From assembly GCF_030316895.1 (NCBI RefSeq), contig NZ_JASZYV010000002.1, forward strand, positions 620,001-684,000: a stretch of 64,000 nucleotides of DNA, given 5' to 3'. The notes below the pieces were generated by a model. It did not search any database, was not told the DNA's origin, and saw only the letters and a program-made list of their open reading frames with translations. This stretch comes from Variovorax dokdonensis (GTDB lineage Bacteria; Pseudomonadota; Gammaproteobacteria; Burkholderiales; Burkholderiaceae_C). The position numbers and the translations under genes were made by a program. Below are positions 14,084 through 15,506 of the stretch, one piece after another; the stretch's first letter is position 1; each line of letters starts with the position of its first letter.

Positions 14084-14126
14084 TGTTTGGTGCTGTGGCT
14101 TGCTGCTTTGGCTTTGTCGGGGGGCG

Positions 14127-14365
14127 CCCGGGCTGCGCCGCCCGCCGCCGGCCGCCACTGCGCCGGTCGGCGCACAGCGCCGACTGCCCTGCGGTGCTCG
14201 TGCAACCGGCCACGCCGTGGAACTCGCTGCGTTCACTTCGTTCACTGCGCTCGAACATCCACGGCAAGCTGGAAGTTGACGCTCGCACACCCGTGCGAGC
14301 TTGGCCGGCTGCACTGCGCGCCTCGGCGGCACAGAGGCAGCCGGCGGCGGGCGGCGCAGCCCGGG
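14127..14365 (-). repeat. Structured intergenic repeat element, copy 1
   Basis: A 239-base element bounded by 26-base perfect terminal inverted repeats (14127-14152 and 14340-14365). Inside it are three hairpins: GTCGGCGC-ACA-GCGCCGAC (14166-14184); GCCGTGGA paired with TCCACGGC (14214-14221 and 14258-14265) around a 36-base loop; and GCTCGCAC paired with GTGCGAGC (14281-14300) with a 4-base loop. In reverse orientation it aligns with copy 2 over most of its length, and one 37-base block differs at a single base. Confidence 0.85.
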
Positions 14366-14445
14366 CTTGGGGGTCCATCGGAGGCGGTGTTGCCCCGGTG
14401 AGCGTAGTTGCGCGATGCGCACAGAAGCATGGCACGACGCATCCT

Positions 14446-14692
14446 CTGCGTGGGTGGGCGGTGTGTGTCGGGGGGCGCCTCTGGGTCGCCGAGGAGCGCA
14501 GTGGGGTGGGCCTGCGCGCACGGGTGTGCGCGCTTCAACATCTGGCTCGCGGCAGTTGTCTGAGCGCAGTGAACGGAGTGAACGCAGCGAGTTCTGCCGC
14601 GCGGGCCCGCCGCGCGAGCACCGCAGGGAAGTCGGCGCTGTGCGCCGACCGACCCAGTGGCGCCCTCCGGCACGCATCGCCCACCCACGCAG
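14446..14692 (+). repeat. Structured intergenic repeat element, copy 2
   Basis: A 247-base element bounded by 42-base terminal inverted repeats with 37 matching positions (14446-14487 and 14651-14692). Internal hairpins are GCGCGCAC paired with GTGCGCGC (14514-14533, loop GGGT), CGCGGCAG paired with CTGCCGCG (14548-14555 and 14594-14601) and GTCGGCGC-TGT-GCGCCGAC (14631-14649). Order and loops match copy 1 in inverted orientation. The terminal arms and two stems have different bases but keep pairing. Confidence 0.85.
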
Positions 14693-14726
14693 TGGCAGCC
14701 AAATTCGCTCCAGAGCCAGCAACAAG

Positions 14727-15506
14727 ATGAGCGCCGACACCCCCATCCTGCAACTGCAGAACGTCGAAAGCGCGTATGGCCCGATCAAGGCCATCCGCGG
14801 CGTCAGCCTGAAAGTCAGGCAAGGCGAGATTGCCACCGTGCTCGGCTCCAACGGCGCCGGCAAGACCACCATCCTCAAGACCATCTCCGGCATCATCGAC
14901 CCGCGCAAGGGCAGCATCGAATTCAAGGGCAGCGACATCACCGCCAAGGATCCTGCCTTCATCGTCCAGCAGGGCTTGAGCCATGTGCCCGAAGGCCGCG
15001 AGGTGTTTCCGCTGCTCTCGGTGCGCGACAACCTGCTCATGGGCGCCTACACCCGCAAGGACCGCGACGGCGTGGCACGCGACGTGGAGGCGGTGTTCGG
15101 CTACTTCCCCATTCTTCGCGAACGCGCGGGCCAGGAGGCAGGGCTGTTGTCAGGCGGCCAGCAGCAGATGCTCGCCATCTCACGTGCGCTCATGGCCGCA
15201 CCGCAACTCATCCTGCTCGACGAGCCCAGCCTGGGGCTCTCGCCCAAGCTCACGAAAGAGATCTTCGAGATCGTGGTGCGCATCAATCGCGAGCGGGGCA
15301 CCACCATCCTGCTCGTCGAGCAGAACGCCAACATGGCCCTCAATGCCGCCGACTACGGCTACGTTCTGGAAAACGGCCGCATCGTGCTGGAAGACACCTG
15401 CGAGCGCCTTCGCGAGAAGGAGGACATCAAGGAGTTCTACCTCGGCATGAAAGAGGAAGGCGTGCGCGGCGAGCGGCGCTGGAAGAAAAAGAAGAACTGG
15501 CGATGA
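14727..15506 (+). CDS. livF: Liv-type ABC transporter ATPase, LivF subunit
   Basis: A 259-residue ATP-binding subunit. Walker A is GSNGAGKTT, the LivF hallmark SHVPEGREVFPLLSVRDNL is present, the signature is LLSGGQQQMLAISRAL and Walker B is LILLDEPSLGLSP. It ends in a basic tail (WKKKKNWR). The frame stays open far upstream through the repeat, but ATG 14727 gives the standard N-terminus ILQLQNVESAYG. Its stop overlaps the acyl-CoA ligase start by four bases. Confidence 0.94.
   Translation: MSADTPILQLQNVESAYGPIKAIRGVSLKVRQGEIATVLGSNGAGKTTILKTISGIIDPRKGSIEFKGSDITAKDPAFIVQQGLSHVPEGREVFPLLSVRDNLLMGAYTRKDRDGVARDVEAVFGYFPILRERAGQEAGLLSGGQQQMLAISRALMAAPQLILLDEPSLGLSPKLTKEIFEIVVRINRERGTTILLVEQNANMALNAADYGYVLENGRIVLEDTCERLREKEDIKEFYLGMKEEGVRGERRWKKKKNWR

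Follow-up and report, generated by a model that had tools for sequence, protein, structure and literature searches.

A composite structured element lies between two genes in Variovorax dokdonensis and consists of two inverted halves, each with several predicted hairpins, that belong to a family with members across its bacterial class. The family is apparently undescribed and belongs among the structured extragenic repeats. We tentatively favour, at slightly less than even confidence, the reading that it is a non-autonomous composite element, an outsized REPIN/MITE-like unit recognised as a folded single strand and spread by an enzyme acting in trans. The window, the whole 64,000-nucleotide stretch that was analysed, carries one such composite element, and the genes on either side are read from their translations as livG and livF, ATPases of a branched-chain amino acid transporter.

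The first-pass annotation had described two inverted multi-hairpin copies on opposite strands at 14127-14692, and every detail of that description was found in the sequence, with the true bounds lying 1 and 3 bases further out (Table 1). The 37-base block that the copies share with one mismatch is CGGTCGGCGCACAGCGCCGACT[G/T]CCCTGCGGTGCTCG; hairpin B has the stems quoted earlier, with its GGGT loop on the matching strand, and the terminal arms are indeed self-complementary within each copy. The count of two copies stands as well, with the qualification from relatives that both are halves of a single composite unit. We refer throughout to strand F, the reverse complement of the strand of copy 1; in each pair the two F strands run outward and their 3' ends lie at the outer termini. 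An exact 14-base direct repeat, TGTCGGGGGGCGCC, occurs at 14115-14128, just outside copy 1, and at 14466-14479 in the inner arm of copy 2.

Table 1. Positions of the composite element and its parts within the window
Feature	Positions	F strand	Details
Composite element	14126-14695	.	Pair of inverted structured halves, 76-nt spacer; flanked by the genes read as livG (end ~14083) and livF (start ~14727)
Copy 1, left half	14126-14366	minus	241 nt; covariance-model core 14186-14326; E 5.1e-26
Copy 1 outer terminal arm	14126-14165	.	Partner 14327-14366; 37/40 aligned positions paired, 3 mismatches
Copy 1 hairpin A	14166-14184	minus	Stem 8 bp, loop 3 nt
Copy 1 hairpin C	14214-14265	minus	Inner part 14231-14245, on F GTGAACGAAGTGAAC: GNA loop, two G.A mismatch steps
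Copy 1 hairpin B	14281-14300	minus	GCTCGCAC/GTGCGAGC
Copy 1 inner terminal arm	14327-14366	.	Partner is the outer arm, 14126-14165
Spacer separating the halves	14367-14442	.	76 nt
Copy 2, right half	14443-14695	plus	253 nt; covariance-model core 14489-14629; E 5.3e-27
Copy 2 inner terminal arm	14443-14488	.	Partner 14650-14695; 40/46 aligned positions paired, 6 mismatches
Copy 2 hairpin B	14514-14533	plus	GCGCGCAC GGGT GTGCGCGC
Copy 2 hairpin C	14548-14601	plus	CGCGGCAG/CTGCCGCG; inner part 14569-14583, GTGAACGGAGTGAAC
Copy 2 hairpin A	14631-14649	plus	Seen in the fold of copy 2
Copy 2 outer terminal arm	14650-14695	.	Partner is the inner arm, 14443-14488

Both halves are predicted to fold with unusual stability as single-stranded DNA on F. 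Copy 1 reaches -112.8 kcal/mol against -74.3 in shuffled sequences (z -10.8) and copy 2 reaches -104.1 kcal/mol against -69.9 (z -8.6), and none of 200 shuffles was as low in either case; the minimum-energy DNA fold of copy 2 pairs the hairpin C region differently from Table 1. A 33-base loop pattern, allowing up to three mismatches, matches the window twice, against a mean of 0.00 over 100 shuffles. The stems covary in the alignment of relatives, as the first-pass annotation expected of a selected fold. Among 79 halves picked for diversity, with kinship left in and the structure derived from the same alignment, the 37 predicted pairs are 96.4% paired versus 74.2 in shuffles, 33 of the 37 have changed on both sides versus 22.3, and the covariation score is 0.581 versus 0.166 when shuffled and 0.044-0.110 for slid structures.

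The hairpin C stems were described correctly, but its supposed conserved loop is itself paired and covaries. On F this segment reads GYGARCGNAGYGARC, a strict form present in 104 of the 165 distinct full halves that we collected. A relaxed form occurs in 109 halves; there, positions 2 and 14 are T-A in 54, C-G in 49 and other combinations in 6, positions 5 and 11 are A-T in 78 and G-C in 31, and complementarity holds in 103 halves for the first of these variable pairs and in 109 for the second, with pairs 2-5 and 11-14 mixed. GNA triloops and tandem G.A mismatches in a 5'-YGAR context are unusually stable DNA motifs, and the combination TGTYTGAGC/GCGAGTT may be a candidate kink-turn.

Strong as it is, this covariation does not bear the weight that the first-pass annotation placed on it as an argument for selection. 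Covariation alone is no proof, because template switching during replication also keeps hairpin arms complementary; PMC8794818 documents it as a maker of compensatory changes that can create and fix complementary stems without selection. The covariation is therefore evidence common to the favoured mobile-element reading and to a rival that we consider unlikely, namely that the halves are inert, a passive palindromic repeat whose arms are kept complementary by template switching and whose copies are kept alike by inter-copy recombination. Better evidence for a functional fold comes from conserved non-Watson-Crick loop motifs and from a wobble bias that falls mostly on one strand. Unpaired segments and G.A motifs are conserved across genera while the stems drift, which speaks against inert halves.

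The bias to one strand is likewise unexpected for a passive palindrome. The outer arm pair was found in 163 of the 165 full halves, and its mismatches, read on copy 1's strand with kinship left in, are A.C in 134 cases and G.T in 28; an excess of A.C on that strand means wobble on F. Every one of the six transition mismatches in the arms of the window's two copies is a wobble on F. The core behaves alike overall, with 156 A.C and 49 G.T on copy 1's strand (39 pairs in 165 halves, kinship again left in), most sharply at four inner-stem pairs, where A.C stands to G.T as 80 to 1, again wobble on F. Two other stem pairs lean the opposite way (A.C 10, G.T 21), and the inner part of hairpin A is biased against F, with 1 A.C to 26 G.T on copy 1's strand. 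The consensus fold comes to -61.4 on F versus -32.6 on the other strand. GNA triloops on F close hairpin A in 89 of 159 cases and hairpin B in 83 of 163, GNRA loops numbering 2; as an exception, copy 1's strand shows C(UUCG)G in 27 of 163 hairpin B loops. F is the strand mostly singled out by wobble mismatches and loop types. These signals fit DNA and RNA alike, since RNA too would favour G.U and G.A, and that the strand in question is DNA rather than RNA is something we infer. In the genome G568, GC skew (20 samples) was too irregular for placing origin and terminus.

That the pair is the unit emerges from neighbouring copies and their remnants. In a tally of 219 records from a profile search, each left copy entering a single time, 94 of 113 neighbouring-copy relations converge when read in copy-1 orientation; their gaps span 89-366 nt, and many lie near 104. 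Three single-contig genomes hold 10-16 found copies each. The single-contig genome G151 yielded 14 copies from 150 scored candidates, as six pairs and two singles. All six pairs measure 261 nt from start to start; two of them lie in the opposite orientation, and the ends that they have in common are sharp (near GCGTCGCGGCAGGCGC and near GCGCGCCTTTGCCGCGC). Their flanks differ, except for another palindromic repeat beside three pairs and one single. At these loci (L430, L431, L432, L437) that repeat, CGGCCCTTTGCTGAAGTTC or its complement, stands on one or both sides, as if the composite had inserted in it.

Deletion derivatives point the same way. Both G151 singles retain the outer terminus of the lost half, and in G236 one site has been fused by internal deletion. 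Nine halves stand alone in the genus g72. For six of these, at three sites, only the arms of a partner remain, 177-195 nt further on; for the other three the motif used reveals no reduced partner. The arms of a half fit each other specifically: own-arm scores average 44.3, random crossing of arms from different halves gives a mean of 16.7, with three crossed scores reaching 44.3, and Watson-Crick pairs make up 4011 of the 4254 aligned arm positions. Arms are common to different sites within a genus and therefore belong to the element, which discards the possibility that they were pre-existing target hairpins into whose loops insertion took place. Within the spacers of g72 (L289-L305) lie further REP-like palindromes, and certain spacer types turn up again elsewhere in the same genome; spacer identities over all pairs show no clear separation. 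Cargo genes between the halves were considered for the 1875-nt gap of L076 and dropped, as it holds small ORFs that look ordinary by eye.

The family extends well beyond this genome. The first-pass annotation had proposed that a covariance model be built and searched in related genomes; this was done, and many further copies were found. Neither of the outcomes it had named as refuting, an absence of additional copies or stems that fail to covary, was seen. The model has 133 positions, and matches were taken at E <= 0.001, its E-values being rough. Within the window it gives two good matches (E 5e-27 and 5e-26), the next best having E 0.13, and elsewhere in the same genome it finds a third, lone half at G000:C3:459163-459300 (L356, 2664-2801; E 5.7e-17), which adjoins a short tandem repeat of GTGGCGCGTGC. 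With copy 1 as a DNA query, matches occur by tally in 34 of 61 genomes of the genus, own genome included, many of them to the arms only. Copy 2 as a query matches at least 121 of 299 genomes and at least 69 of 141 genera of the GTDB family, with two candidates scored per genome. A loop-pattern scan of named genomes returned at least 120 stretches, and Rubrivivax, Methylibium, Ideonella, Variovorax, Xenophilus, Pseudorhodoferax, Rhodoferax, Inhella and Paucibacter are among the matches listed.

At higher ranks the model matches at least 67 of 300 genomes and at least 36 of 135 genera across the order (at most 11 candidates scored per genome), and at least 32 of 321 genomes and at least 27 of 243 genera across the class (at most 10 scored); the own genome, G174 and G187 give matches in both samples. 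Families f10 and f20 have full-length matches with E down to 1e-26, and matches elsewhere outside f1 are mostly 90-120 nt long, with best E of about 1e-11 to 8e-4. The paired layout recurs in G403, G573, G811, G921, G931, G818, G886, G739 and G829. In other families (L357, L358, L365, L369, L373, L374) a T-rich type of hairpin, CTTTCTTTGGCGAAGCAAAGAAAG, stands on the 3' outer side of the half. Searches of plasmids with copy 2, of phages with one relative's pair and of viral contigs with one exact pattern gave no match.

Position relative to genes bears on a further rival, which we regard as improbable: that the element is an RNA structure at 3' ends, acting on F as an mRNA stabiliser, an attenuator or a processed small RNA. 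Neighbouring genes of 43 pairs were taken from a home-made ORF caller that is wrong in places (livG was missed in the window), and their orientations are -- in 16, +- in 14, ++ in 12 and -+ in 1; for the 23 pairs with both gaps between -35 and 300 nt the counts are 8, 9, 6 and 0 for --, +-, ++ and -+. In 42 of 43 pairs, then, one or both neighbouring genes are directed towards the element, as a 3'-end structure would have it, and the very stable fold and the G.U bias on F would suit an RNA equally. The orientation of F to neighbouring genes is, however, mixed in other families, which removes F as a fixed 3'-UTR strand, and a pair has F on both strands. Nor does the window favour an RNA: no promoter-like site was found in the element, the sole terminator-like site (14729-14742) lies outside it, and the element splits two genes that look like one operon. 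That only 1 of the 43 pairs lies between divergent genes counts in turn against inert halves, though selection against disrupted promoters would have the same effect.

Occupancy varies between relatives, a further point against an RNA element. Of 20 relatives read at the livG-livF site, 18 have both anchors. Among these 18, two halves are present in four (G028, G047, G041, G020), one half in three (G033, G038, G009), a remnant in one (G052) and no element in ten. At six of the ten empty sites the extrapolated distance between the genes is negative, with stop and start overlapping as ATGA. The model confirms 11 halves in the seven occupied genomes and none in the empty ones, and finds one more at a contig end in G057, which lacks the full set of anchors. 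Occupancy states are interleaved on the livG/livF tree, and gain or loss has therefore been repeated. Six compared sites in g72 are common to several species, so that they give no sign of recent movement. No target-site duplication was recognised by eye at the livG-livF site, the g72 sites or the G151 loci, where empty sites are placed more coarsely than to the nucleotide.

Copies also exchange sequence, which speaks for the passive reading. At the six g72 sites the cores of half B are no more alike at orthologous sites (identity 0.940, n 17) than when two sites within the same genome are compared (0.934, n 24) or when site and genome both differ (0.929, n 95), unlike their flanks, for which the same three classes give 0.832, 0.378 and 0.384. 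Spacers and halves vary between genomes at one site. In orthologous copies from close relatives, two arm pairs have changed at both members and, judged by eye, four or more at one member only, and at one orthologous site of close relatives two strongly divergent versions of the right half occur, a wholesale block difference; such double changes and block differences are what template switching and recombination among inert copies would leave.

REPs and REPINs are among the closest known systems. REPINs, as described in PMC3116915, are extragenic pairs of inverted palindromes predicted to form hairpins in single-stranded DNA or RNA, and our element shares with them the inverted palindromic pair that forms one unit with a spacer, the extragenic position and the predicted single-strand folding. 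This common plan would also favour a true REP/BIME array moved by a RAYT (TnpA-REP), an explanation already disfavoured and in our judgement very improbable. REP palindromes span 20-40 nt, whereas the halves here are multi-branched and about 240 nt long; the 10-16 copies found in each of three single-contig genomes are a further difference. No GTAG or CGTC tag is conserved beside the arms: by strand, CGTC occurs in 11 and 14 and GTAG in 2 and 3 of 162 halves. Y1_Tnp (PF01797, E <= 0.001) was found in 19 of 30 carriers, two of the 19 with matches below the family cut-off, versus 15 of 20 genomes chosen as non-carriers in that no scored candidate matched; it is absent from 11 of the 30 carriers, some of them copy-rich. 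A RAYT as mobiliser is set aside on this lack of association, and no mobiliser was found with PF01797, the one family tried.

Other comparisons are partial in different ways. Like MITEs, the element is short and carries no recognised gene, unit-length copies at the six G151 loci match at their ends, and internal-deletion derivatives exist; unlike them, it ends in hairpins, and no parent transposon was found (PF01797 was tried). The attC sites of integrons, like other recombination sites recognised as folded single strands, are meaningful on one strand, and structure matters there over sequence. Our element resembles attC in both respects, but no integrase or cassette array was noticed. With Rfam structured RNAs it has in common a multi-hairpin covarying fold, and the earlier view that it lies outside the named classes agrees with our search, in which no Rfam family reached its cut-off anywhere in the window and a lax search of the element and ten related loci gave sub-threshold matches only, none of them near. 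We recognised no description of this element in the open-access literature, to which the search was confined. None of six betaproteobacterial terms occurs in PMC3733652. New structured families in bordetellae are reported in PMC2267715, and the element may be kin to one of these.

The favoured reading remains the non-autonomous composite element. A mobile element of this non-autonomous kind is consistent with three observations: a composite whose outer ends match from locus to locus, derivatives that arose by deletion, and occupancy that changes between relatives. The strand bias and loop motifs fit recognition of a folded single strand, much as TnpA-REP (PMC8266576) processes single-stranded REPs and needs the REP structure. 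In this model, (i) the unit would consist of two inverted, separately folding halves, each with a terminal stem and hairpins A, B and C, joined by a short spacer; (ii) its past spread would have been driven by a trans-acting enzyme recognising the halves as a folded single strand, presumably F, whose 3' end would point out of the element in both halves; and (iii) insertion would be tolerated mainly downstream of genes. Once inserted, copies would for the most part remain where they are, with internal deletions removing halves and recombination passing sequence from copy to copy, and the stems would be held complementary by template switching together with selection. A stronger form of the proposal, which we think doubtful, is that an enzyme reads the class-wide family specifically as single-stranded DNA in its folded form; GNA triloops and tandem G.A (5'-YGAR) would be selected in the loop and the stems free to covary, so that the family would represent an evolving natural single-stranded DNA fold of a complexity like that of structured RNAs.

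If the one-strand reading is true, the 165 distinct full halves supply a natural set of considerably more than a hundred variants of one complex fold of a single strand, and a direct route to the protein that reads it. Even if the repeat is passive, the occurrence of strong covariation beside heavy copy mixing is a warning for structure-discovery pipelines. The repeats also give rise to spurious arginine/serine-rich ORFs: long reading frames with SERSERSE-like peptides arise from the element (14242-14688 and other frames) and could be mis-annotated as proteins.
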